Origin: Opitutales bacterium
GTDB lineage: Bacteria > Verrucomicrobiota > Verrucomicrobiia > Opitutales > T3Sed10-336
NCBI GenBank assembly: GCA_007130045.1
Contig: SLTG01000110.1
Span: 1 to 47,061, forward strand
Reading direction: 5' to 3'
Length of the DNA stretch: 47,061 bases
The notes beneath the pieces were generated by a model, which worked only from the letters and a program-made list of their open reading frames with translations, searched no databases and had not been told where the DNA came from. This document shows, in pieces, positions 16,862 through 29,282 of the stretch (its first letter is position 1; each line of letters opens with the position of its first letter). The translations under genes were made by a program, and so were the position numbers.

Positions 16862-17749
16862 TCAATGGGCGGTTACCGGCACGTCCGCATCTCTTCCCAG
16901 CGACAGATCCGCGCGATGGAGCGGCATGCCGCCGCCTTCCCGGTTCTGGTAAAGCAGGATGCTCCTCAGACGCCCGACCTGCTCTCCGAAATCCTCGTGA
17001 AAAAAGACGATCTCCGAGATTTTCTCGCTTTGGATCCTGATCAACGGAAGATCCTCGCAAGAAACCACCTTCCACGAAGTATAGACCTCGGGCGCCTCGC
17101 TCCGCGCAAGGGACAGAAGTTCGGCAACCGGTTCCAATCCGTCAAGAGGACGGAACGCCCCTCCGTCCCGGCGCAGTTCGACGCCGGACACGTACGGCAG
17201 TGAAGAAACCAACGTACGGCTGTATCCAACCCCCTGGTAAACCACGCCGTCCTCTGCAACGAGGAGATTGATGCGCCGGCTGTCCCGATCGCGCGCCGCA
17301 AGCCGCATCATGGGCATTCGCTCATTAATCCGGATGTGGAGTTTGTTCGGCAGTCTGCGCGAGACCACGGCGCGCGAGACCTGGCTGTGACGCTCGAGAT
17401 CCTCCTTGATCGCGTGAATATCCACTTCCATCAGCGGCTTGTCCGCCGGCAGACCGATCCGGTCGATCACCCATTGGTTCGGAATTACCCCGTCGGTAAC
17501 AAACTCGATGGTTTCAACCGGAGACGAGGGAATCAGTGAGGTGATCGTTTTCGATCCTTCCGCGACCACCCGGTATGCGCCCCATCCGGCGAACCCGACG
17601 GCCCCCAGCAAAAGACACGCCGCCATCGTTCGAAAAACGAGCTTAAAGTAGCGTCGTTTCGCAAAGCTTGAAACCTTGACCTGCCGCGCGGACTGTCTGA
17701 TTCCGCGCCAACTGGCACCGCTTTTCTTACCTGCTTTCCTCTTTCTCAC
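16862..17749 (-). CDS. ftsQ: Cell division protein FtsQ
   Basis: 295 residues with GTG start, overlapping the ddl stop as GTGA. A basic cytoplasmic tail (1-38) precedes one membrane helix, TMAACLLLGAVGFAGWGAY (about 41-59), then a periplasmic POTRA domain (about 80-150; IEFVTDGVIPNQWVIDRIG, then VSRAVVSRRLPNKLHIRINE) and a beta domain. The single-pass topology and POTRA match FtsQ/DivIB, which holds FtsB-FtsL and activates septal synthesis. Position between ddl and ftsA is the classical one. Confidence 0.92.
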   Translation of the reverse strand: MRKRKAGKKSGASWRGIRQSARQVKVSSFAKRRYFKLVFRTMAACLLLGAVGFAGWGAYRVVAEGSKTITSLIPSSPVETIEFVTDGVIPNQWVIDRIGLPADKPLMEVDIHAIKEDLERHSQVSRAVVSRRLPNKLHIRINERMPMMRLAARDRDSRRINLLVAEDGVVYQGVGYSRTLVSSLPYVSGVELRRDGGAFRPLDGLEPVAELLSLARSEAPEVYTSWKVVSCEDLPLIRIQSEKISEIVFFHEDFGEQVGRLRSILLYQNREGGGMPLHRADLSLGRDADVPVTAH

Positions 17750-18684
17750 AATCCGCGCCTTTCTCTTTTCGAAAACCGATAACGCTCAATGGCAGGCATA
17801 ATAAGCTTCTTGGCCAATTGTTTAAAGTCCAAACCATCGCACGATGCGCTCATCGGGAGCAGACTGGTGCCCGTCAACCCCGGGAGCGTGTTAATCTCGA
17901 GAAAATAGAACGCTCCGTCGTCGCCCAATATAAAATCCACGCGGGCAAAGTCACGGCAGCCGCAGCAATCAAAGGCGGTCTGCGCCGCTTCCCGAATGGC
18001 ACCGGACAACGGTTCCGGGATCTCCGCCGGCGCCCGGTACCGCGTGCGTCCACTGGTGTATTTGCTCTCGTAGTCGTAACGTCCGGACACCGGCATGATC
18101 TCGACGACTCCCATCGCATCACCATCGAGGACCCCGACAGTCAACTCCCGTCCCTCGATCCTTTCCTCGACGAGCCATTCACCCGAATCCAGGAGCTTAA
18201 GCCGCTTTTCCAGTTCATCCGCGCCGTCGATGATCTGCAAACCGATGCTGCTGCCTTCGCCGTTGGGCTTTACCACCAATCGTTCCCCGAGTTGCTCGAC
18301 GATCTCACCGACCGGCGGGAGCGCATCCACCGGAAAGAATTTTCCCCGGGGAACCACGACCCCGCCCTCACGCACGCGCTGTTTCGTATCTTCTTTATTC
18401 ATGCACAACCGGCTGGATTCCGCATCGCTGCCCGCATAATGAACGCCCTTGGCATCGAGCAGCCCCTGCATTCCCCCGTCCTCTCCGAACGTCCCGTGAA
18501 GGGTGGAAAAGACCACATGCCTGTTCGCATCGATCCCGGACGGAACTTTCTCCGAAAGAATCTCGAAGACTTCCACCGGGTAAAACGCCATTAGCGCCTC
18601 GGTAACGAACCCGGCCGAACGCACGGAAATTTCCTTTTCACGGGAAACCCCTCCCGCGAATACCGCCACAACCGGACCGCTCAC
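17746..18684 (-). CDS. ddl: D-alanine-D-alanine ligase
   Basis: 312 residues from the GTG at 18684. This start is preferred to the ATG 15 bases upstream because GGAGGGAGG in that interval is the ribosome-binding site and because GTGA then overlaps the murB stop as at the neighbouring junctions. Motifs: FAGGVSREKEISVRS at the N-terminus, HGTFGEDGGMQG, the ATP-grasp Lys region ERLVVKPNGEGSSIG, and EINTLPGLTGTSLLP which holds the metal-binding Glu and Asn. It makes the D-Ala-D-Ala that MurF attaches. Confidence 0.95.
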   Translation of the reverse strand: MSGPVVAVFAGGVSREKEISVRSAGFVTEALMAFYPVEVFEILSEKVPSGIDANRHVVFSTLHGTFGEDGGMQGLLDAKGVHYAGSDAESSRLCMNKEDTKQRVREGGVVVPRGKFFPVDALPPVGEIVEQLGERLVVKPNGEGSSIGLQIIDGADELEKRLKLLDSGEWLVEERIEGRELTVGVLDGDAMGVVEIMPVSGRYDYESKYTSGRTRYRAPAEIPEPLSGAIREAAQTAFDCCGCRDFARVDFILGDDGAFYFLEINTLPGLTGTSLLPMSASCDGLDFKQLAKKLIMPAIERYRFSKRERRGL

Positions 18685-19652
18685 AATACCTCCCTCCATT
18701 CCCCGCCGAAAAGGAGCACTTCCGGCTCGAGGCTCACGCTCCGGCGCCGCCGGACCTCCTCGCGCAACACGCGAACAAGTTCGATCACGTTAGCGGCAGT
18801 CGCCTCGCCGCGATTGACAATAAAGTTCCCGTGCACAGACGACACTTCGGCGTCGCCCACTCTTCTCCCTTTGAGGCCCAATTCATCGATAATCCTTCCG
18901 GCGTAATCTCCGTTCGGGTTCTTAAAGATGCACCCGGCGCTCGATTCCTTCGGCTGAGCACCGGTACGCTTTTCCTGAAACTCCGTCAACTTCAGGCGAA
19001 TGGCATCCTCGTTCTCCCGAACCGGCGCCGCGATCACCGCTCCGATCGCTATAGTATTCAAAAGTTCATGACAAACCCGATACTCGTAATGCAGATCCCT
19101 CGCGGGAACAAGCCTCTCCTCGCCGTCGAGCGTCATCAGGCGGACCTCGTCGACGAGGTCAAAAAACCAGCCTCCCATCGCTCCGGCGTTCATCCTCAAC
19201 GCCCCGCCAACGGTGCCCGGAATTCCTTCAAGGAACTCCAAACCGCCGAGCCCGAGCCTGCAGGCTTCGCCGCAAAGCTTGCGAAGCCGCACGCCTGCCC
19301 CGGCCGACAGGCGCCCGTCCTCCGTCTGTTCGATCTCCCTCCAGACCGGTTGTTGCAAGCGAAGCACCAGGGCGTCCACGCCCTCGTCCGGAATGAGAAC
19401 GTTCGATCCGCGTCCCAGCAGCAGCACACGAACAGCCCGGCGACGCGCTTCTTTCAACAGCGACTGCAAATCGCCGATTGACGCCGGCTCGGCATAAAAA
19501 CGCGCCGATCCGCCGACTCCGAGCGTCGTTTTTCGGGCAAGCGGCTCGTTCTCAAGAAAGACGGATTCCGGAAGCAGTTTCGCTCCGTTTCCTGAAGCAA
19601 ACCCGGAGAACGGCGCGGAGTGTGTCTCCCGCGTTGTTCCTGGGTCGCTCAT
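18681..19652 (-). CDS. murB: UDP-N-acetylenolpyruvoylglucosamine reductase
   Basis: 323 residues. FAD-binding motifs appear in order: TTLGVGGSARFYAEP, LLGRGSNVLIPDEG and GLEFLEGIPGTVGGALRMNAGA. The substrate Arg is in HYEYRVC, the proton-donor Ser in SSAGCIFKNPNGDYAG, and the catalytic Glu in SLEPEVLLFGG. The layout with a short tail fits a type II MurB. It reduces the enolpyruvyl group to give UDP-MurNAc. Its ATG overlaps the murG stop by 4 bases. The gene commonly found just before murB, murC, is absent here. Confidence 0.96.
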   Translation of the reverse strand: MSDPGTTRETHSAPFSGFASGNGAKLLPESVFLENEPLARKTTLGVGGSARFYAEPASIGDLQSLLKEARRRAVRVLLLGRGSNVLIPDEGVDALVLRLQQPVWREIEQTEDGRLSAGAGVRLRKLCGEACRLGLGGLEFLEGIPGTVGGALRMNAGAMGGWFFDLVDEVRLMTLDGEERLVPARDLHYEYRVCHELLNTIAIGAVIAAPVRENEDAIRLKLTEFQEKRTGAQPKESSAGCIFKNPNGDYAGRIIDELGLKGRRVGDAEVSSVHGNFIVNRGEATAANVIELVRVLREEVRRRRSVSLEPEVLLFGGEWREVL

Positions 19653-20803
19653 GGTGCGGAAGCGCTCCTCTTTCGCGCGAACTGCAGGAATCCCGCGGCT
19701 TTCCGTTCGCGTGCGTTCCGATCGGAAAGCGACTCAAGGTCGTTTATAATCCCCTTAAGACAATCCTTGCGGTCCATCCGTTCGAGATTTGAACGGAAGG
19801 TCCTCAACAGCCAATCGTTAAAAATTGTATCCAACACCTCCTGACGCAGATCCTGGATGAAGTCCTGGCTGATCGCGATCCCTCCGCCCTGCCTTTCGAC
19901 GAACACGGCGTTCGCCCATTGATGATTGTCGGCCGCATATGGATACGGTATCAGGATCGCCGGCACGCGGCAGCGGATCAACTCGCTTATCGTACCCGCC
20001 CCAGCGCGAGTCACAACGAGATCGGCTGCGGAAAGAAGTTCTGAAATTTTGTCGATAAACGTAACGAAATGCGCCTTGACCGGCTGCCCGCCTCTCGATT
20101 CGAGCTGAAACACTCCCGCGTCACCTTTGTCCATCCCCGTCACACAGAAAACATGAACCCCCTCCTCGGCGAGGAACTTGAAATTTTCCCTTACCCAGTT
20201 GTTAAGAACGCTTGCGCCCTGGCTCCCGCCGAGAACGACGAGGAGTTTTCCATAAGCTTCGATTCCGAGTTTTTCCCGGCTGGATTTCGAGGGAAGACGT
20301 CTGATTTCACGGCGAACGGGGCATCCATAGAAGCGGACCACGCCGGGAGCCACCTTTCTCAGCCGAACTCCGGGCGGGAGATAAATGCGATGAGCGAGCC
20401 GGCGCAGCGTGCGGGTCGCCCGCCCGGGAATTCGGTTGGCTTCGTGGAGCACCAGAGGGACCCCGCGAAAAGTGGCGGCGAGAGCTATTCCGAGAGTGCA
20501 GAATCCGCCGAACCCGATTACGAGATCGGGAGAAAAACTCCGGATCGCGCGAAACGACCCAATCACACCCCTCGCCTGGTTCCAGATAAACGAACCCAGT
20601 CTCAATGGCCGCATGGAGAAAGGCGAGCCGGGGACGGCAATGAAATCGAGCGACGGATATTTCCGGGTCAGACGCCGGTCCACTCCCTTGCAGCTGATCA
20701 CGAGGCAGCAACTGTGCCCGCGCGCGATGAGGCCCTCCGCCAGGGCGATGCCCGGCGCAAGATGGCCTCCCGTTCCTCCGCATGAAATCAGGAACTTCTT
20801 CAC
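19649..20803 (-). CDS. murG: Lipid II synthase, GlcNAc transferase MurG
   Basis: 384 residues from the GTG at 20803, which overlaps the ftsW stop (GTGA) and has GGAG about 8 bases upstream; a longer in-frame start is not supported. Motifs are the glycine-rich loop SCGGTGGHLAPGIALA, FGGFCTLGIALAA, HEANRIPGRATR, the second glycine loop VVLGGSQGASVLNN, and the UDP-GlcNAc site TRAGAGTISELIRCRVPAILIPYPYA in pieces. It acts at the inner membrane face, adding GlcNAc to lipid I. The final ~20 residues are basic and poorly conserved. Confidence 0.95.
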   Translation of the reverse strand: MKKFLISCGGTGGHLAPGIALAEGLIARGHSCCLVISCKGVDRRLTRKYPSLDFIAVPGSPFSMRPLRLGSFIWNQARGVIGSFRAIRSFSPDLVIGFGGFCTLGIALAATFRGVPLVLHEANRIPGRATRTLRRLAHRIYLPPGVRLRKVAPGVVRFYGCPVRREIRRLPSKSSREKLGIEAYGKLLVVLGGSQGASVLNNWVRENFKFLAEEGVHVFCVTGMDKGDAGVFQLESRGGQPVKAHFVTFIDKISELLSAADLVVTRAGAGTISELIRCRVPAILIPYPYAADNHQWANAVFVERQGGGIAISQDFIQDLRQEVLDTIFNDWLLRTFRSNLERMDRKDCLKGIINDLESLSDRNARERKAAGFLQFARKRSASAP

Positions 20804-21960
20804 GCGGCAATCTCCTTCAGCCGGCGCCGGGAGTGGCGTATCGGCGATTTCGTCCACGAAAGGGAAGTGTTCACCAAAACTCCGATGATGGCGAACATGG
20901 CCACCAGGTTCGAGCCCCCGTAGCTTATGAATGGAAGCGACAGCCCCTTGGTGGGAAGGCATCCAGTAACCACCGCCATGTTGATGAGCGCCTGGACGCT
21001 AAGCAGCAGCAACGCTCCCGCAACGAGGAGGTACTGGTACATATTCGGCGCTCGCCGAAGATGCCAGATCCCCGCCAGAAAAAGCACAAGAAAAAGCAAA
21101 AGCACCACCGTTGTTGCAAAGAAACCGAGCTCCTCGCCGATTACCGCGAAGATAAAATCAGTGTGGGCTTCCGGCAGGAATGCCATTTGCTGGCGGCCGT
21201 TGCCAAGACCCACACCCTGGGTGCCTCCCGTTCCGAAGGCAAGTATCGCCTGCCAAAGCTGATAGGCGCCGTCGCCGCGGTTCCCTTCGATATCCATGAA
21301 TGACAGAATGCGTCCGCGTCGCAACGGATTCGTGAACACAGCGAGCGCAAACGCCGCCGTTGCGGCCATACACATAGGAACCAGGTAGGTCAGCCGCACG
21401 CCGGCCAGGAACAGGAGCGTAAGCCCGACGGCGCCACAAAGCGCAGCGGTCCCATAATCCGGTTCGAGAAAAATCAATCCCGCAAAAAGACCGATGTAGG
21501 CGCATGGCAAAACGAAACCCGCCCAGAAGCTTGGAATCGCCCGCTGGTTGGCGCCGAAATAACAGGCGAGCGTGAAGACCAGTCCCAGTTTGGCAAACTC
21601 CGAAACCTGGACGCGCATAAATCCCAGATCGATCCAGCGGCGGGCTCCGTTCACCTCGACGCCTATGCCCGGAATCAACACCAACACCAATCCGGCGAGG
21701 GACACGGCCAACGCGGGCCAGGCAAAACGTTTCAATCCGTCGAGATTGACCAGGGAGAGAAAAAACCCGACCAGGAGCGCGATACCCAGCCACATAAACT
21801 GGCGCCGGATAAAGAAATACGGGTCGGACCCCGAGTGTGCGCTCGCGCTGAAAAGCACGCTTACACCGAAGACGGTGAGGCTGACCGCGCAGACCAGAAT
21901 AATCACTCCCGGTTGAAAGATCCTGATACGGGATAGACCTTCTGCGGATCGGGACGCCAT
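20800..21960 (-). CDS. ftsW: Septal peptidoglycan polymerase FtsW (SEDS)
   Basis: 386 residues with about ten hydrophobic helices. SEDS motifs include SASAHSGSDPYFFIRRQ after helix 1, NGARRWIDLGFMRVQVSEF (the periplasmic loop entering helix 4), FLEPDYGTA with the catalytic-type Asp, YQLWQAILAFGTGG, and the C-terminal GLSLPFISYGGSNL. It polymerises glycan strands from lipid II together with FtsI. FtsW rather than RodA is inferred from its position between mraY and murG. The start is 21 bases after the LysM gene's stop. Confidence 0.95.
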   Translation of the reverse strand: MASRSAEGLSRIRIFQPGVIILVCAVSLTVFGVSVLFSASAHSGSDPYFFIRRQFMWLGIALLVGFFLSLVNLDGLKRFAWPALAVSLAGLVLVLIPGIGVEVNGARRWIDLGFMRVQVSEFAKLGLVFTLACYFGANQRAIPSFWAGFVLPCAYIGLFAGLIFLEPDYGTAALCGAVGLTLLFLAGVRLTYLVPMCMAATAAFALAVFTNPLRRGRILSFMDIEGNRGDGAYQLWQAILAFGTGGTQGVGLGNGRQQMAFLPEAHTDFIFAVIGEELGFFATTVVLLLFLVLFLAGIWHLRRAPNMYQYLLVAGALLLLSVQALINMAVVTGCLPTKGLSLPFISYGGSNLVAMFAIIGVLVNTSLSWTKSPIRHSRRRLKEIAA

Positions 21961-21981: not shown

Positions 21982-23085
21982 CTATTCGTCATCGGGGATG
22001 ATAGGGATCAGCGGTACATCCTCGTCGTCTTCATCCTCGATAAAATCCATTTCCACAGGTTCATCCGGAACGACGGGAAGCGCTTCTTCAACGGGTCTCG
22101 GCTCCTCCTCGGCAACATCCTCCTCCTCTTCGACTCCCGGAATGACGAGCGTCTGGCCGATCCTCAGGGTACGCTCATCGCGGATGTCGTTGACCTGCAT
22201 AATCTCGGATACTGAAACCCCGTAACGGGACGCGATCGCCCCGAGCGTGTCACCGCTGACGACCGTGTACCGGAGGCCGTCAACGTCGTCGTCAGGAGCG
22301 GCGGACGTTGCAGGTTGTTCCCGCGGAGCCGAGTCGCCGTCGGGAAGGACGAGTTCCTGCCCGATGCGAATAGTATCGCCCTCAAGGTTGTTGACGGACC
22401 TGAGTTCGGAGACAGTCGTGCCGTACCGTTGGGCGATCACCGAAAGGGAATCGCCGCTCCGGACGGTATAGGACTCCGCGCCTTCCGGTATTTCCACAGG
22501 CTGCCGCGGCGGCGGGGACGTTGCCGGCGGCGCGGAGGGACGTCCCCCCGTGCCCGCCGGAATCCTCAGTTCCTGGCCGGGTCGGATGATCGATTCGCGG
22601 GTCAGGTTGTTGATCGCCAGCAGCTCGTCCATCGACACGTTCTCGCGCCGTGCGATATTCCAGATGTTGTCTCCGCTCTGAACGATGTAGGTTCCGGTTC
22701 CGACAGGCTCCTCTTCCTCCGGGATATCATCCCAGTCCCATTCCCAATCGTCGAGCGGTTCATCATCCCGGGGCAAGGGGCTCAGGGGAGATTCGTCGTC
22801 CACAGGCGCAAAAAGGTCGTCATCGTCAGGAGTCAAGGGATCTCCCCATGAATCGTCCGGACGCGCCGGGGCCGCCCGCTGCGGACTTTCCTGCGCGGTC
22901 CGCTCCGGCGCGGCCGCAGGTTGATACTCGGCACGGGCAAGCTGCGCGTCAGCCGGACCGGACGGGCGCGTTCTGTCAACTCGTTCTTCCGGTGACATCG
23001 TTTGGCAACCCTGCTGGACAAACAAAAGCGAAAATGCCAGCAGGTGAGCGACTAATACAACGGCGAATACTTTTGGCGCCTTCAT
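21982..23085 (-). CDS. Lipoprotein with three LysM domains
   Basis: 367 residues from the ATG at 23085; the ATG 21 bases further upstream would bury the GGAGG ribosome-binding site inside the gene. A signal peptide ends in a lipobox-like FVQQGC, giving a lipidated Cys. A Pro/Asp/Glu-rich linker follows (about 30-140). Three LysM repeats start at TYIVQSGDNIWNIARR, SYTVRSGDSLSVIAQRYG and RYTVVSGDTLGAIASRYG; the C-terminal ~45 residues are strongly acidic. LysM binds glycan GlcNAc. No hydrolase domain is present, so it may tether or place other wall factors. Its position inside the dcw cluster between mraY and ftsW implies a role in division or wall growth, which is inference. Confidence 0.88.
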   Translation of the reverse strand: MKAPKVFAVVLVAHLLAFSLLFVQQGCQTMSPEERVDRTRPSGPADAQLARAEYQPAAAPERTAQESPQRAAPARPDDSWGDPLTPDDDDLFAPVDDESPLSPLPRDDEPLDDWEWDWDDIPEEEEPVGTGTYIVQSGDNIWNIARRENVSMDELLAINNLTRESIIRPGQELRIPAGTGGRPSAPPATSPPPRQPVEIPEGAESYTVRSGDSLSVIAQRYGTTVSELRSVNNLEGDTIRIGQELVLPDGDSAPREQPATSAAPDDDVDGLRYTVVSGDTLGAIASRYGVSVSEIMQVNDIRDERTLRIGQTLVIPGVEEEEDVAEEEPRPVEEALPVVPDEPVEMDFIEDEDDEDVPLIPIIPDDE

Positions 23086-23351
23086 GTTTTTCTTATTCCT
23101 CCACATTGCTGGTTGCTGGTTGTGAGATTTATAGTCTTGATTAATAATAGTTTCCTCGTTTTCTCCTCTATATCCGGAGATTGATTGGACGGAAAACGGC
23201 TTGGCATGGCCACGGATGCGGGACAGCCGCCGACAGATAATTGGCTCCAGTTTCCAACCGGATTACCCCGCGCGCAATCAAAAATCAACGCCCCTGCAAC
23301 GTTTTTATGCAAATAAACGAATTTTCCCAAGATTTTCACAATTTCGAACAT

Positions 23352-24452
23352 CTATCTCAGTCTCAGTGTTCCCAATCCAATGATCGCAAAAACCAGCGAA
23401 AGTATCCAGAAACGCATGACAACCTTGGTTTCGAACCACCCTTTCAGTTCGAAATGATGGTGGATCGGCGCCATCCGAAACACCCGCCTTCCACGGCTTT
23501 TCACGGAGAGAACCTGTACGATGACCGATACCGCTTCCATAACGAAAATCCCGCCGACGATGATAAGCGTAAGCGGTTGATGGACCATGAAAGCCACGAC
23601 CGCGACGATACCGCCGAGAGCGAGCGAACCGGTGTCTCCCATAAACACTTCCGCCGGGTGCGCGTTGTACCAGAGGAACGCGAGCCCCGCTCCGACCAGC
23701 GCCCCGCACACGATGCTTAACTCCCCCGTCCCTGGAACGTAACTGATAAACAGGTAATCGGCGATAATCACGTTGCCGGCGGCGTATGCCATGATGGCGT
23801 AAACCAGCGCCACGGTAATCGTGCACCCGATCGCAAGTCCATCGATGCCGTCGGTGAGGTTGATCGCGTTACTGGATCCGACGAGGACAAGCCCAAAGAA
23901 TGGAAAAAGGAACCAGAGGGGGGCGGGGGTCATCACCGCCTCCTTGACGAAGGGCACCCAAAGCTCGCGCGCTTTCACCGCGCTCTCGGGATGCAGCAGG
24001 AGAGCCGTCAGCGCGCAAACAGCGATAAGCGCCTGCCAGAAAAGCTTCCTTTTGCCCGATACTCCTTTGCTGTTGCGCCGTGTCACTTTCAGGTAGTCGT
24101 CGGCAAATCCCACCACGGCAAGCGCCACAAAAACGGCCAATGCGACCAGCACCCAGACGTTGGGTTTGGCCCACAAAAGCGTACTGATCACCACGCCCGC
24201 AACGATCAGCACCCCCCCCATCGTGGGGGTGTCCTTTTTTTTCAAGTGCAGGTCGGCGAGTCGGCCGACTTCGGATTCCGTCCGGAGGCTTTGGCGAAAA
24301 CTCAGCTCCTTGAGTTTGCGAATCATCCACGGCCCCAGGACGAACCCGATCGCCAGAGCGGTTCCCGCGGCCAGCAATCCCCGGAAGGTGATGTAGCGAA
24401 ACATACGGAACGGCCCGAAAAAATTCTCCAGTTCGGCCAGGTAACTCAGCAT
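23352..24452 (-). CDS. mraY: Phospho-MurNAc-pentapeptide translocase
   Basis: 366 residues, about ten membrane helices. The start MLSYLAELENFFGPF overlaps the murF stop by 7 bases. Signature motifs: KKKDTPTMGGVLIV, VVGFADDYLKV with the conserved Asp pair, NAINLTDGIDGLA with the magnesium Asp, FMGDTGSLALGG, and the cytoplasmic PIHHHFELKGW. It transfers phospho-MurNAc-pentapeptide to undecaprenyl phosphate to make lipid I. The 266 bases from its end to the LysM start include no gene I can recognise. Confidence 0.97.
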   Translation of the reverse strand: MLSYLAELENFFGPFRMFRYITFRGLLAAGTALAIGFVLGPWMIRKLKELSFRQSLRTESEVGRLADLHLKKKDTPTMGGVLIVAGVVISTLLWAKPNVWVLVALAVFVALAVVGFADDYLKVTRRNSKGVSGKRKLFWQALIAVCALTALLLHPESAVKARELWVPFVKEAVMTPAPLWFLFPFFGLVLVGSSNAINLTDGIDGLAIGCTITVALVYAIMAYAAGNVIIADYLFISYVPGTGELSIVCGALVGAGLAFLWYNAHPAEVFMGDTGSLALGGIVAVVAFMVHQPLTLIIVGGIFVMEAVSVIVQVLSVKSRGRRVFRMAPIHHHFELKGWFETKVVMRFWILSLVFAIIGLGTLRLR

Positions 24453-25915
24453 GCGACCCCCCTTCCGGATGCGGCGTTTCCCCGTAAATCCACCCAAAGC
24501 CGCTCCAGTTTGTAGCGCCGGCTTCCCTTGACGAAAACCGCGCCTCGAAAGGTCTTGAGTCGCTCCTTGACCGCGTCGATGGTCTCAGTCACCGACCACA
24601 AGCCGGAATCGTTGCCGCCGTCGGCGAGTCCGCGGGCCATCGCCCGCGCGTGGGTTCCGATCAGGAAAGCGAAATCGCCGTCGCGAAGCCTAAGAGAACG
24701 CAGGGCTTCGAAGTGAAACAAATCCGCTTCGGATCCGAGCTCTTCCATCGAGCCGATCACAAACAGGCGCGGAAGCTCATCGGGCGCGGACCTCACGAAG
24801 GCTTCCACCGCGTCCACCAGGGCGACCGGATTGGAATTGTAGCAATCAAGATAGTAGAATCCTTCGTCGGTTGAGAAAACCTGTCCGCGGTACGAACCCG
24901 GTTCCCAACGAAGAAGGGCTTCGCGGATCGTCTCGTCGCCCGCACCGAGTTCGTGGGCGAGCGCGATCGCCAGGCCCGCATTCTCAGCCATACCCGCGCT
25001 CAACGAACGAACCGGAAATACAGTTTCCTCATCGCTCCCGTGAAACCTGACCAGAAGCACCGCGTTTCTCTCGGCCCACCCCCTCCCGTACCTCACGCGA
25101 CGGGGGTATTTGGCGAGGCCGGGATCGGAAAGCCGCGAGGGCCAGCGCCGCATCAGATCTCGTCGCGCGGCTCCCATGAAGTCCTCGGATTCGAGCACCA
25201 GGACTGACGATTCCAGCGATTGGAACTGCTCGAACGCCAGGCAAGTCGCCGGAAACGCCGCAATCCCGCGCAGTGGAAGCGATTTCAGCAGACCGGATTT
25301 CTCCTCGGCGACGCCGTCGAGATCTATGAGGTGTTCCAGGTGTACCGGGGCCACGTTTGTGACGACTCCGTGGGTCGGGCCGATCATTTCGCACAGTATT
25401 GTCATCTCCCCGGGCATATTGATGCCCGCCTCGATCACCGCGATCGTATGGCGTTCCGGTTCAAGTCGAAGCAGCGTCAGCGGAACGCCAATGTGATTAT
25501 TGAAATTGCCTTCGGTCTTGAGCACCGGGCCCTGAAACGACAACAGGTCGGCGAGAAGATTCTTTGTGGAGGTTTTTCCGCAACTTCCGGTCACGCCGAT
25601 TACCGGTCCGCGAAAACGTTTCCGATGAGCGGCGGCCATCCGCTGAAGAGCGGCAAGAGGTTCGTCCGTCACAAGCTGCGGCAATTCCGATCCCTCGATG
25701 TGCCTGGCCACCAATGCGCATGATGCTCCTCGCGACCGGGCGTCGTCGAGGAAATCGTGCCCGTCGCGATTCTCCGTTCGCAGGGCGATGAACATCGCGC
25801 CCCGTCCGATCTCGCGGGAGTCCTGATGAAACCCGGCGACACCGGCCGGCATTCCGCCCCTCCAGGTTCCCCCGGACCATTCGGCCAAGTCTCTGGGATC
25901 GAATTCAGGCATCAT
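24446..25915 (-). CDS. murF: UDP-MurNAc-tripeptide D-Ala-D-Ala ligase
   Basis: 489 residues. The N-terminal substrate domain has DSREIGRGAMFIAL. The central ATPase has P-loop GVTGSCGKTSTKNLL, then TEGNFNNHIGVPLTLLR, IEAGINMPGEM, and TNVAPVHLEHL followed by AEEKSGLL with the lysine expected to be carbamylated. The C-terminal domain has YNSNP in place of the usual DDYNANP core (DCYNSNP), and VIGSMEELG. All catalytic features are kept, in contrast to the neighbouring MurE. It adds D-Ala-D-Ala made by Ddl. It starts 5 bases after murE. Confidence 0.95.
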   Translation of the reverse strand: MMPEFDPRDLAEWSGGTWRGGMPAGVAGFHQDSREIGRGAMFIALRTENRDGHDFLDDARSRGASCALVARHIEGSELPQLVTDEPLAALQRMAAAHRKRFRGPVIGVTGSCGKTSTKNLLADLLSFQGPVLKTEGNFNNHIGVPLTLLRLEPERHTIAVIEAGINMPGEMTILCEMIGPTHGVVTNVAPVHLEHLIDLDGVAEEKSGLLKSLPLRGIAAFPATCLAFEQFQSLESSVLVLESEDFMGAARRDLMRRWPSRLSDPGLAKYPRRVRYGRGWAERNAVLLVRFHGSDEETVFPVRSLSAGMAENAGLAIALAHELGAGDETIREALLRWEPGSYRGQVFSTDEGFYYLDCYNSNPVALVDAVEAFVRSAPDELPRLFVIGSMEELGSEADLFHFEALRSLRLRDGDFAFLIGTHARAMARGLADGGNDSGLWSVTETIDAVKERLKTFRGAVFVKGSRRYKLERLWVDLRGNAASGRGVAC

Positions 25916-25920
25916 TCAAC

Positions 25921-27405
25921 TCAGGTATTTCCCGTTCTTCGCATGACAAGCAATTCCCTTGCGATCATGCGGTCGTCAAACGGCAGAAGCGTGTCCCCCA
26001 TTTCCTGGAACGATTCGTGCCCCTTGCCCGCAAGCACAACGCAATCCCCTTCGGCGGCGGAATCCAGCGCCATGCGGAGCGCCTCGCGGCGATCCTCCAC
26101 GAACGCGATTTTCTCCGGCTCGACCACCCCCTGCCGCATATCGGAAAAGATCCGTTCCAACGGCTCTCCCCGGGGGTTATCGGCAGTCGCCCATGCGTAA
26201 TCCGCGCGCTCTTGAACGGTCCTGAGAACGGCGCCGCGATGCGATCGCTCCCGGTCTCCTCCGCACCCGAAGACGACGAGTACCCGGCCGTCCACGACTT
26301 CCCTTAGCGAGTCAAGCGCCCGCCCGAGCGTCGCTTCATTATGCGCGTAATCGACGAACACACCGAAACCCTGTCCCTCGTCGATCCGTTCCATTCTCCC
26401 GGGCACCCCCGGGAACGAGGAAAGAGACCTTGTAAACCGCTCCGGCGCCCGGCCGTACGCATAACACGCCGCCGCCGCCGCGAGAAAATGACTCACGTTG
26501 TAGGCGCCCGCCATCGGGAGTTCCACATCCTTCGATCCTTCGGGCCATTCGAGCCGCAACTGTGTGCCCCGGCAATCGGCCACAACGCCCGTCGCGCGTA
26601 CGTCGGCCTCCGCGCTTCTCCCGAACGAAATGACCGGCACCCTGCCCGAAATGTCCTCGGCCAGTTTGCGCCCCCACGGATCGTCGATGTTGACGACCGC
26701 CTTCTCCGGAACCGAACCCGATTCCCCGTCGAACATCCGCCGCATCAACGCCCGGGCCGCGTCCATCGATCCCTCGGCGCGCGCGCTGTCCTCCGAGAGG
26801 TTAAGGAAAACCATCACTCCCAACTCCAGACCGTAAACGTTCCAATGGCGGATTCCCACAGTGTCCATCTCGATCACCGCCTCCTTGATGTCCACTTTTT
26901 TCATCTCCGCGATCAACCCGATCAACTCCAACGATTCAGGTGTCGTACGAACCGACGGCACAGACCGCGAACCCAGATCGTAGCGGATGCTGCCCGTCAT
27001 TCCCGCAGCCCGGCCGGATGAGTCCAACAGATGCTTGAGCAGGTGAACCGCAGTCGTCTTACCGTGCGAGCCAGTTACGCCGAACAGTCTGACCGCTCGG
27101 TCCGGATACTCGAAAAACCTCCGGGCAACCTGCGCCATTGCCATGCGCGCATCCGGAACCCGGATAAACGTCACTCCGGAATGGGGACGGCGATCCTGCT
27201 CTGTCACTATGGCGGAGGCGCCCCGATCCACGGCTTCCTCTATAAAAAAACTTCCGTCGGTTTGTGCACCGGGTAACGCGAAGAAGAGGCATCCCGGCGT
27301 CACGCGACGGCTATCGGTTGTCAGCCGGCTCACGGTTCGATCCAGACTCCCGCTGAACCAGGCTAGGTCGATGCCTGCAAAAAGGGTCTTCAGCGTTTGC
27401 TGCAT
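25921..27405 (-). CDS. murE: MurE-like UDP-MurNAc-dipeptide ligase with altered active site
   Basis: 494 residues. Present: LTTDSRRVTPGCLFFALPG, P-loop GVTGSHGKTTAV (110-120), RTTPESLEL, VDYAHNEATL, FGCGGDRERSHRG, DNPRGE (409-414; DNPR is typical of meso-diaminopimelate ligases) and AGKGHE. Altered: the EVSSHGL motif reads EMDTVGI (179-185), RDHLDYHG reads EDSARAEG (205-212), and the lysine that is carbamylated in MurE aligns with Met221 in AARALMRRMF. It would normally add the third stem residue. A GTG at 27501, overlapping the ftsI stop and preceded by a strong GAGGAGGGG, is an alternative start that would add 32 residues; 27405 is chosen by homology. Whether the ligase is active is uncertain. 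Confidence 0.85.
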   Translation of the reverse strand: MQQTLKTLFAGIDLAWFSGSLDRTVSRLTTDSRRVTPGCLFFALPGAQTDGSFFIEEAVDRGASAIVTEQDRRPHSGVTFIRVPDARMAMAQVARRFFEYPDRAVRLFGVTGSHGKTTAVHLLKHLLDSSGRAAGMTGSIRYDLGSRSVPSVRTTPESLELIGLIAEMKKVDIKEAVIEMDTVGIRHWNVYGLELGVMVFLNLSEDSARAEGSMDAARALMRRMFDGESGSVPEKAVVNIDDPWGRKLAEDISGRVPVISFGRSAEADVRATGVVADCRGTQLRLEWPEGSKDVELPMAGAYNVSHFLAAAAACYAYGRAPERFTRSLSSFPGVPGRMERIDEGQGFGVFVDYAHNEATLGRALDSLREVVDGRVLVVFGCGGDRERSHRGAVLRTVQERADYAWATADNPRGEPLERIFSDMRQGVVEPEKIAFVEDRREALRMALDSAAEGDCVVLAGKGHESFQEMGDTLLPFDDRMIARELLVMRRTGNT

Positions 27406-27497: not shown

Positions 27498-29282
27498 TCA
27501 CAAGCCGCCCCCTCCTCTCTGTGCGATTTCCCGCGCGGGCCGCGTTGGCTCAATCCCCAGGTAGGGGATCAACTCGACCCCGATCCTGCGAAAGCTCGGC
27601 GCCGCCACGAGCCCTCCGTACGACGGACCCGCAGTCGTCGGCTCGTCGACAATGATCGTAATCGCAACGCGTGGATTGGATGCCGGAAAGTAGCCTGAAA
27701 AAGTGGCTGTGTGGTGCTCTCGGGAGTAACGCCCGTCGACGATTTTCTGTGTGGTCCCGGTCTTTCCGGCGACTTCATACCCGGGAATCTGCGCCTCCGG
27801 CGCGGTACCCCCCGGCGCCGCAGCCAGAACCAGCATCTCGGAAACGGCCTCCGCAGTCGCCATGGAAACCGCGCGGCGACGGGCGTAAGGATGAAGAGTG
27901 AACATGTCTTCGCCCTGACTGTTGAAGGCGCGGCGAATAATCCGCGGTTCCATAAGCACCCCTCCATTTGCCAGCGCCGCCATTGCAGAATGAATCTGCA
28001 TCGGAGTTGCGTTGACGGCGTGCCCCATCGGCAGGCGGGTAATGGTCAATCCGTCCCAATTGCGCACCGCGTGAAGCGTTCCTCTCACTTCTCCAAGCAG
28101 CCGAAAGCCCGTTCGCTCGCCAAAACCGAAGTCCGCGGCGTACCGGTGCAGCCGCTGTTCGCCGAGCAATAACCCGAGGTAAGCCACTCCCCGGTTGCTC
28201 GATCTCTGCATGATTTCCTCAACCGACAACTCCCCGAACTCGCGGTGATCGCTCGGAAGACGAAGGTTTCGGCCGCGGTATTCCACGACCGAAACCCCGC
28301 AGTCAAACACGGAATCCACGCGAGCAACACCTTCGTTCAACGCGCCTGCAACGGGGACGATCTTGAATGTGGAACCGGGTTCCAGAACGTCGGTAACAGC
28401 GAGGTTCCGCTGATGCGCGATGTCCGCCACGTTATAGCGGTTCAGGTCGAACGTCGGGTAATTGGCGAGTCCCAGGATGTAGCCGGTCGCCGGTTCGCTC
28501 ACAATGATCGTCGCCCCGCGCGGCGAAAATTGTTCCGAAATTCTACGCAGTTCCTTCTCGATGACGTGCTGAACCATCACGTCGATTGTGAGTTCGATGT
28601 TCAGACCGTCCGTCGCCGGCACGTCGCGGGTTCTAAACTGCATCAGTTCCCGGCGCCGTCCGTCCCGCTCGGACTCCATCCATCCGTTTTCACCGCGAAG
28701 GTAGAAATTCATCGCGTGCTCGACGCCGATCACGCCGAGGCCCTCGCGGTTCGCATATCCGACGACATGCGACGCCAGTTCCCCGGAGGGATAGACCCGG
28801 CGGTAAGTCCGATTCCCGTAAACACCGCGAATTCCCAACTCCCGGACCCTTTCGTACTCGGCCTCGTCGAGTCCGTCGTGGAGCTTGCGCCAACGCACAA
28901 GCCGGACATCTTCGGAAAAATCCGACTCGCCGGATGCGGTTCGAACCGTCATCTTTTGCTCGAGCTCGCTGAGCGGCATGTCGATCAGCGACGCCAGTTC
29001 CAGCCATTTTCCGCGATCCTCCTCGCGCAGGACATGGGGATCCACTCCCAGTTCAATAAAGGTTCGATTCGTCGCGAGCAGGTTTCCGCGGCGGTCCACG
29101 ATATTTCCCCGCCTTGCGTTATGAACGACGATCTGCTTGCGGTTGCTTTCGGCAATCGCGGTGAGTTGCTCGCTTTCAAGCACCTGCAAATAATAAAGCC
29201 GCACGCCGATCCCGCAGAACCCGGCCATCATCACCAGGCAGAGCAATCCGAGGCGAAACGACGATGCGAAAGCCGGCGTCAT
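27498..29282 (-). CDS. ftsI: Septal transpeptidase FtsI (class B PBP)
   Basis: 594 residues. One membrane helix (LGLLCLVMMAGFCGIGVRLYY, split about 11-31) precedes the PBP dimer domain with RRGNIVDRRGNLLA, then the transpeptidase domain: Ser304 and Lys307 in EPGSTFKIV, SSN at 361-363, and KTGT at 507-510. These are the penicillin-binding active-site motifs. It cross-links septal peptidoglycan with FtsW. It overlaps the ftsL stop by 4 bases. The Gly-rich end RGGGGL is encoded by the sequence that also forms a strong ribosome-binding site ahead of a possible murE GTG start. Confidence 0.96.
   Translation of the reverse strand: MTPAFASSFRLGLLCLVMMAGFCGIGVRLYYLQVLESEQLTAIAESNRKQIVVHNARRGNIVDRRGNLLATNRTFIELGVDPHVLREEDRGKWLELASLIDMPLSELEQKMTVRTASGESDFSEDVRLVRWRKLHDGLDEAEYERVRELGIRGVYGNRTYRRVYPSGELASHVVGYANREGLGVIGVEHAMNFYLRGENGWMESERDGRRRELMQFRTRDVPATDGLNIELTIDVMVQHVIEKELRRISEQFSPRGATIIVSEPATGYILGLANYPTFDLNRYNVADIAHQRNLAVTDVLEPGSTFKIVPVAGALNEGVARVDSVFDCGVSVVEYRGRNLRLPSDHREFGELSVEEIMQRSSNRGVAYLGLLLGEQRLHRYAADFGFGERTGFRLLGEVRGTLHAVRNWDGLTITRLPMGHAVNATPMQIHSAMAALANGGVLMEPRIIRRAFNSQGEDMFTLHPYARRRAVSMATAEAVSEMLVLAAAPGGTAPEAQIPGYEVAGKTGTTQKIVDGRYSREHHTATFSGYFPASNPRVAITIIVDEPTTAGPSYGGLVAAPSFRRIGVELIPYLGIEPTRPAREIAQRGGGGL

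Follow-up and report, generated by a model that had tools for sequence, protein, structure and literature searches.

Decay of the dcw-encoded MurE and loss of MurC and MurD suggest a nontextbook route to the wall peptide in a family of Opitutales

The DNA stretch analyzed here, referred to as the window, comprises 47,061 nucleotides of an uncultured Opitutales bacterium (contig SLTG01000110.1 of assembly GCA_007130045.1) and carries, within its division and cell wall (dcw) gene cluster, a gene for a protein of the MurE family. This protein is an orthologue of MurE, yet it does not pass the tests for an active enzyme of that family. We consider it probable that replacement of the MurC-MurD-MurE route, with a second, unlinked MurE (MurE2) and the ligase Mpl taking over, came first and that the native dcw MurE then decayed to a noncatalytic protein. 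The window genome (G000) is a draft, 96.7% complete and in 146 contigs; it belongs to the family termed f1 and was compared with four relatives (G001 to G004) and with further genomes of the order.

The window MurE matches the MurE subfamily model TIGR01085 over its whole length (373 bits; cut-off, 257.3). Its start is the ATG at position 27405, with a possible in-frame GTG at position 27501. Substitutions were read by alignment with 25 dcw MurEs from this order that are intact. The initial annotation had reported that EVSSHGL reads EMDTVGI, that RDHLDYHG reads EDSARAEG, and that the lysine carbamylated to hold the second Mg2+ is replaced by Met221; all three replacements are borne out by the alignment, which resolves the first into S181D, S182T, and H183V, followed by Q187H and R189N, and the second into H207S, Y210A, and H211E. 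Neither of the residues that hold the second Mg2+ (His207 and the carbamylated Lys221) is left, and the dipeptide-contact motif is gone as well. A lysine elsewhere that might fill the vacated site, as had been proposed for checking, was found neither in the helix of residues 214 to 225 nor in the alignment. Further changes, overlooked in the initial annotation along with that of the P-loop Asn114 to His, are those of Lys389 (the KRP lysine) to His and of Asp386 to Glu. The statement that the ATPase and DNPR motifs are kept holds for TTP, GGDR, DNPR, and GKGHE of the window copy, in which the first metal site likewise retains its glutamate, but not for the P-loop, where TGTNGKT is replaced by TGSHGKT with only the GxxGKT core retained, nor for the relatives, in which the P-loop, GGDR, DNPR, and GKGHE drift. 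Residue 181 (26863-26865) is Asp in place of Ser in four of the five degenerate MurEs (G000 to G003), which resembles the ExDE of MurC and Mpl.

The extent of decay was quantified at 94 positions that are at least 95% identical in intact MurEs, the intact proteins themselves being scored leave-one-out. The window MurE deviates at 20 of these positions and the copies of the four relatives at 18 to 33, compared with 0 to 8 for intact MurEs. The same test applied to MurF, Mpl, MraY, MurG, FtsW, and Ddl revealed no excess in G000 to G004, in agreement with the earlier description of the neighboring MurF as canonical. The dcw MurE genes of G001 to G004 are intact open frames, and neither chance nor a faulty sequence accounts for the pattern. 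From G000 to G004, the position of Lys221 is occupied by M, M, I, V, and D, the P-loop reads TGSHGKT, TGAYGKT, TGSHGKT, AGLRGKS, and AGRHGKT, the GGDR site GGDR, GGKG, GGNR, GGGR, and AGGT, the DNPR site DNPR, DNPR, DNPR, DNTR, and DDPG, and the GKGHE site GKGHE, GKGNE, GKGHE, GKGHE, and GKGHA; the position of His207, Ser in the window MurE, is A, T, T, or deleted in the relatives. The drift of the ATP site among relatives fits a loss of catalysis better than a changed catalyst, and, judged from these substitutions, catalysis by the dcw MurE has very likely been lost in f1. Like the MurE characterized in Verrucomicrobium spinosum (PMC3681970), the window protein is an orthologous MurE in the same dcw position, with the same predicted fold and with DNPR and GKGHE; unlike it, the window copy is devoid of the Mg2-ligand histidine, the carbamylated lysine, and the dipeptide contacts, and in the relatives additional motifs are decayed.

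It is improbable that the window MurE has remained a ligase, acting on a new substrate with another metal arrangement in which, for example, Asp181 replaces the lost ligands. MurC and Mpl function without the carbamylated lysine, MurC with the aid of a Glu located elsewhere (PMC3060825), and in both the Mg1 glutamate is followed by an acidic residue that they employ, as the conserved Asp181 would be; moreover, the window copy has the motifs of the ATP and diaminopimelate (DAP) sides, and the dcw MurE is under purifying selection (see below). However, the position of the compensating Glu is occupied by T, T, A, and W, the Mg2 histidine, which MurC and Mpl keep, is lost as well, and even close relatives differ without apparent constraint in the P-loop, GGDR, DNPR, and GKGHE. 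The other way to organize the metals that the initial annotation had suggested is not supported, given the loss of both Mg2 ligands and, across the relatives, of P-loop, GGDR, DNPR, and GKGHE residues.

The window MurE is the native dcw gene, decayed in place. In the tree it clusters, at nodes of which some have modest support, with the dcw MurEs of G020 and of a sister genus, and it sits between ftsI and murF in a surrounding gene order that is ancestral. The alternative put forward in the initial annotation, a diverged or stray paralogue occupying the murE locus, is ruled out by this grouping with the intact dcw copies of its closest relatives. Between G000 and G002, nonsynonymous divergence (dN) is 0.23 for MurE, 0.23 for MurB, 0.27 for MurF, and 0.30 for MurE2; synonymous sites are almost saturated. 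The dcw MurEs of the two genomes share 75 to 76% identity in the N- and C-terminal domains and 60% in the central domain, whose conservation in intact MurEs roughly equals that of the N-terminal domain. The open frame and the N- and C-terminal domains of the window MurE are under purifying selection, so that the gene is not an ordinary pseudogene; this points to a structural pseudoenzyme. The structure, predicted with confidence (predicted local distance difference test, 87), displays a MurE-like fold, and its best matches, about equal at template modeling scores of 0.89 to 0.90, are plastid PAP11 (PDB 8r6s; 0.89) and the MurE of Mycobacterium tuberculosis. A Mur-ligase fold serving another purpose is also present in MurT, the subunit of lipid II isoglutaminyl synthase that acts with GatD; unlike MurT, the window MurE is adjoined by the usual dcw genes. 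As a MurE-family protein on the periphery of the plastid RNA polymerase, of which it is a subunit (PMC12681378), PAP11 provides a precedent for a role of the MurE fold in a nonwall complex; many plant forms retain DNPR, and the MurNAc contacts are the least conserved. While PAP11 is encoded by a eukaryotic nuclear gene, the window MurE is encoded by a bacterial dcw gene. That the dead MurE is kept for a structural role appears to us evenly balanced; it might persist because its two terminal domains serve a structural or regulatory function, e.g., within a complex of MurE, MurF, and MurG, as these three proteins are known to associate (PMC6420597).

The degenerate MurE is accompanied by the loss of MurC and MurD. 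Only five Mur_ligase_M proteins are present in G000, namely the dcw MurE, MurF, MurE2 (contig C26), Mpl (contig C44), and FolC. A search with MurC and MurD models, which covered G000 only, gave nothing above the cut-off in this genome with E values up to 10, so that the absence of murC remarked upon earlier extends genome-wide and to murD as well. The sister genus (G005 and G007), whose gene order matches, possesses an intact MurE, a MurD encoded between mraY and the LysM gene, and, following MurG, a fusion of MurC with MurB; in G000 to G004, those parts of the cluster that are covered lack both MurD and the MurC half. MurB and MurC form one protein also in Opitutus, Coraliomargarita, and Lacunisphaera (PMC5303756). 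The LysM gene as a replacement of MurD is ruled out, as it adjoins murD in intact clusters, too. An assembly or binning artefact, with MurC and MurD on missing contigs and MurE2 as contamination, is highly improbable: the assemblies are indeed drafts, as that of G000 exemplifies, but the genes are excised from otherwise intact dcw clusters in several genera, including genomes that are 97 to 100% complete, and MurE2 recurs in 17 genomes.

MurE2 is encoded at 18 to 21 kb of contig C26 of G000 (L001 and L055), unlinked to the dcw cluster. It scores 451 bits as a MurE, and its catalytic motifs (P-loop, EVSSH, DHLD, Lys, DNPR, and GKGHE) are all present. The N-terminal domain, which in MurE structures binds the uridine end of the substrate (PMC3829189), features CRPxxV...EFLEYNxWxxG plus an insertion where others have DSRxV...GxxxDG. 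The Mur ligase N-terminal domain PF01225 gave no match in three of three MurE2 proteins tested and was found in the window MurE and in two of the three relatives tested. The search for a second canonical murE suggested at the outset was thus successful, but with its atypical N-terminal domain this gene is part of the new situation rather than a removal of the anomaly. According to the profile of that domain, MurE2 occurs in 17 of the 373 genomes of the order and is confined to f1 and a second family, f22. Its flanking genes differ, comprising an acyl-coenzyme A synthetase and a flavin adenine dinucleotide enzyme in f1 and an HDOD gene in two f22 genomes; a conserved partner gene is ruled out by these differing neighbors, none of which is a ligase. 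One carrier, G028, encodes a stand-alone Mur-ligase-like protein (L115, 5742-7232) that is nearest to the C-terminal half of cyanophycin synthetase.

The Mpl of G000 reaches 383.8 bits with TIGR01081, its best model (cut-off, 388.7), and the Mpl motifs are intact in all 22 proteins aligned from the order. Elsewhere Mpl is a recycling enzyme, and the characterized enzyme has rates of 260 per min with the tripeptide, 1.4 with L-Ala-D-Glu, and 0.7 with L-Ala (PMC3060825). With MurC gone, Mpl is the only remaining Mur ligase known to load a first residue on UDP-N-acetylmuramic acid (UDP-MurNAc), and the ligases that are lost or dead (MurC, MurD, and MurE) are exactly those whose product Mpl attaches in one step. 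Replacement of the MurC-MurD-MurE route in these lineages is likely. More tentatively, a free-tripeptide route ending in Mpl could have taken its place: L-Ala-D-Glu-DAP would be built before attachment, MurE2 would add DAP to L-Ala-D-Glu without UDP-MurNAc, and Mpl would load the whole tripeptide onto UDP-MurNAc, after which MurF and the later enzymes would act as usual. MurC, MurD, and the dcw MurE would thereby be dispensable, the latter decaying once the route had been replaced. We regard it as rather doubtful that the dcw MurE decays simply because it is redundant beside MurE2. MurE2 retains all catalytic, dipeptide-side, and DNPR motifs, scores well as a MurE, and has an N-terminal domain that is still MurE-like, as redundancy would have it; yet redundancy requires two more UDP-MurNAc ligases of no known identity, of which there are none in the Mur superfamily, and it leaves unexplained why the lost steps are just those that Mpl bypasses and why the N-terminal domain of MurE2 is remodeled. 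A salvage life style, with recycling or other bacteria as the main source of the stem tripeptide and a wall that depends on uptake via Mpl, accords with the recycling function of Mpl and with the loss of MurC and MurD, but is hardly probable for genomes of 3 to 5 Mb that encode division proteins as well as Ddl, MurB, MraY, and MurF and in which a conserved MurE2 with intact DAP-ligase motifs would be useless.

The pattern recurs in f22. MurC was not found in the f22 dcw clusters, as concluded from gene order, stand-alone MurB, and PF08245 combined, since PF08245 misses some divergent MurC proteins of the order, e.g., the fusion in G009. In the f22 genomes checked, MurB is unfused and encoded outside the dcw cluster, G454 being without a MurB match, and MurD is gone in genera g25, g43, g46, and g234. 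In genus g231 (L167, L168, L169, and L170), a MurD is still there without the carbamylated lysine and the EISSF motif, i.e., a decaying MurD. Lys221 of the dcw MurE is lost in every f22 member examined (L, V, or E), and the f22 dcw MurE represents an earlier stage of decay than the window copy. A six-gene tree separates f1 from f22 and joins the f1 carriers to the sister genus with the intact genes, whereas the MurE2 tree shows one clade with f1 nested among f22; from this discordance, MurE2 probably moved between the families by lateral transfer. Both MurE2 lineages have lost or are losing MurC, MurD, and MurE, and the second case is independent. The hint of an unusual stem-peptide assembly given in the initial annotation is supported by this recurrence together with the genome-wide absence of MurC and MurD in G000. 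It is conceivable, if still short of probable, that a de novo free-tripeptide pathway arose or spread twice in the order, leaving the dcw MurE, and temporarily also MurD, as pseudoenzymes that were kept.

Several observations weigh against takeover by MurE2 and Mpl. The N-terminal domain of MurE2 is still recognizably MurE-like (2wtz; E value, 8e-13) and may bind UDP via other residues, and G004, a genome 88% complete, yielded no MurE2. Most f22 dcw MurEs retain EVSSHG and DHLDYH, and in g231 the lysine is changed to Glu, a residue that at a different site lets MurC dispense with this lysine (PMC3060825), so that some f22 copies may be active. Neither the rate nor the motifs of Mpl are clearly changed in carriers. 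No enzyme joining L-Ala and D-Glu was found; a BacD-type ATP-grasp protein (PF13535) was present in none of 11 genomes and MurI (TIGR00067) in none of 15 genomes of the order, carriers or not. The dipeptide epimerase-like DgcA occurs in f1 carriers only, and the carrier G437 has an extra MurC-MurB fusion and Ddl (L200, G437:C5) that differ from those of the order and look foreign, by contamination or transfer. DgcA forms an operon with DgcN, an N-acetyl-D-Glu racemase pair, in f1 MurE2 carriers (L165, 3097-5138; L174, 6543-8707; L175, 2050-4082); this operon was not found in the sister genus (G005 and G007). A dipeptide epimerase as common partner is ruled out by the confinement of DgcA and DgcN to f1 carriers, and other small epimerase matches resemble MenC beside a MenE-like AMP-binding gene. 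The features of the window are compiled in Table 1.

Table 1. Coordinates of the degenerate murE, its altered sites, and neighboring dcw features in the window
Feature	Position	Strand
Ddl	17746..18699	-
Stand-alone MurB; most relatives examined have a MurC-MurB fusion	18681..19652	-
MurG	19649..20962	-
FtsW	20800..21960	-
LysM-repeat protein, ancestral murD neighbor in the order	21982..23106	-
Gap between mraY and the LysM gene; site of murD in the sister genus	23107..23351	.
MraY	23352..24497	-
MurF, canonical	24446..25915	-
dcw-locus MurE, 494 aa, predicted to be catalytically degenerate (pseudoenzyme)	25921..27405	-
DNPR (409-412), retained in the window copy; DNTR or DDPG in two relatives	26170..26181	-
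Met221 codon, replacing the carbamylated Lys	26743..26745	-
EDSARAEG (205-212), replacing (R/Q)DHLDYHG; Mg2-ligand His207 to Ser	26770..26793	-
EMDTVGI (179-185), replacing EVSSHG(I/L); E179 (Mg1) retained	26851..26871	-
P-loop GVTGSHGKTT (109-118), Asn114 to His	27052..27081	-
FtsI-type penicillin-binding protein upstream of murE	27498..29282	-

As with the known Mpl (PMC3060825), the intact Mpl of the order would attach L-Ala-D-Glu-DAP to UDP-MurNAc; while the known enzyme recycles beside MurC to MurE, that of f1 and f22 would carry the main flux. The MurD2-MurL route of Xanthomonas (PMC5808125, PMC8788868) is likewise a variant of an early stem-peptide step, but it uses UDP-MurNAc-L-Ala and a MurD-type ligase, whereas neither MurC nor MurD was found in the window lineage. 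No publication joining Mpl, MurC, MurD, and Verrucomicrobia was found. The fixed order of MurC to MurF acting on UDP-MurNAc is among the most conserved bacterial pathways and a set of drug targets. The evidence suggests that the f1 bacteria build their wall peptide by a nontextbook route. If this is true, the order of the pathway can be rewired, two lineages having dispensed with the three ligases at its start but not with MurB, MurF, or the genes for lipid II; a recycling enzyme can turn into an entry step, and dead Mur ligases can be retained, probably for their place in a complex.
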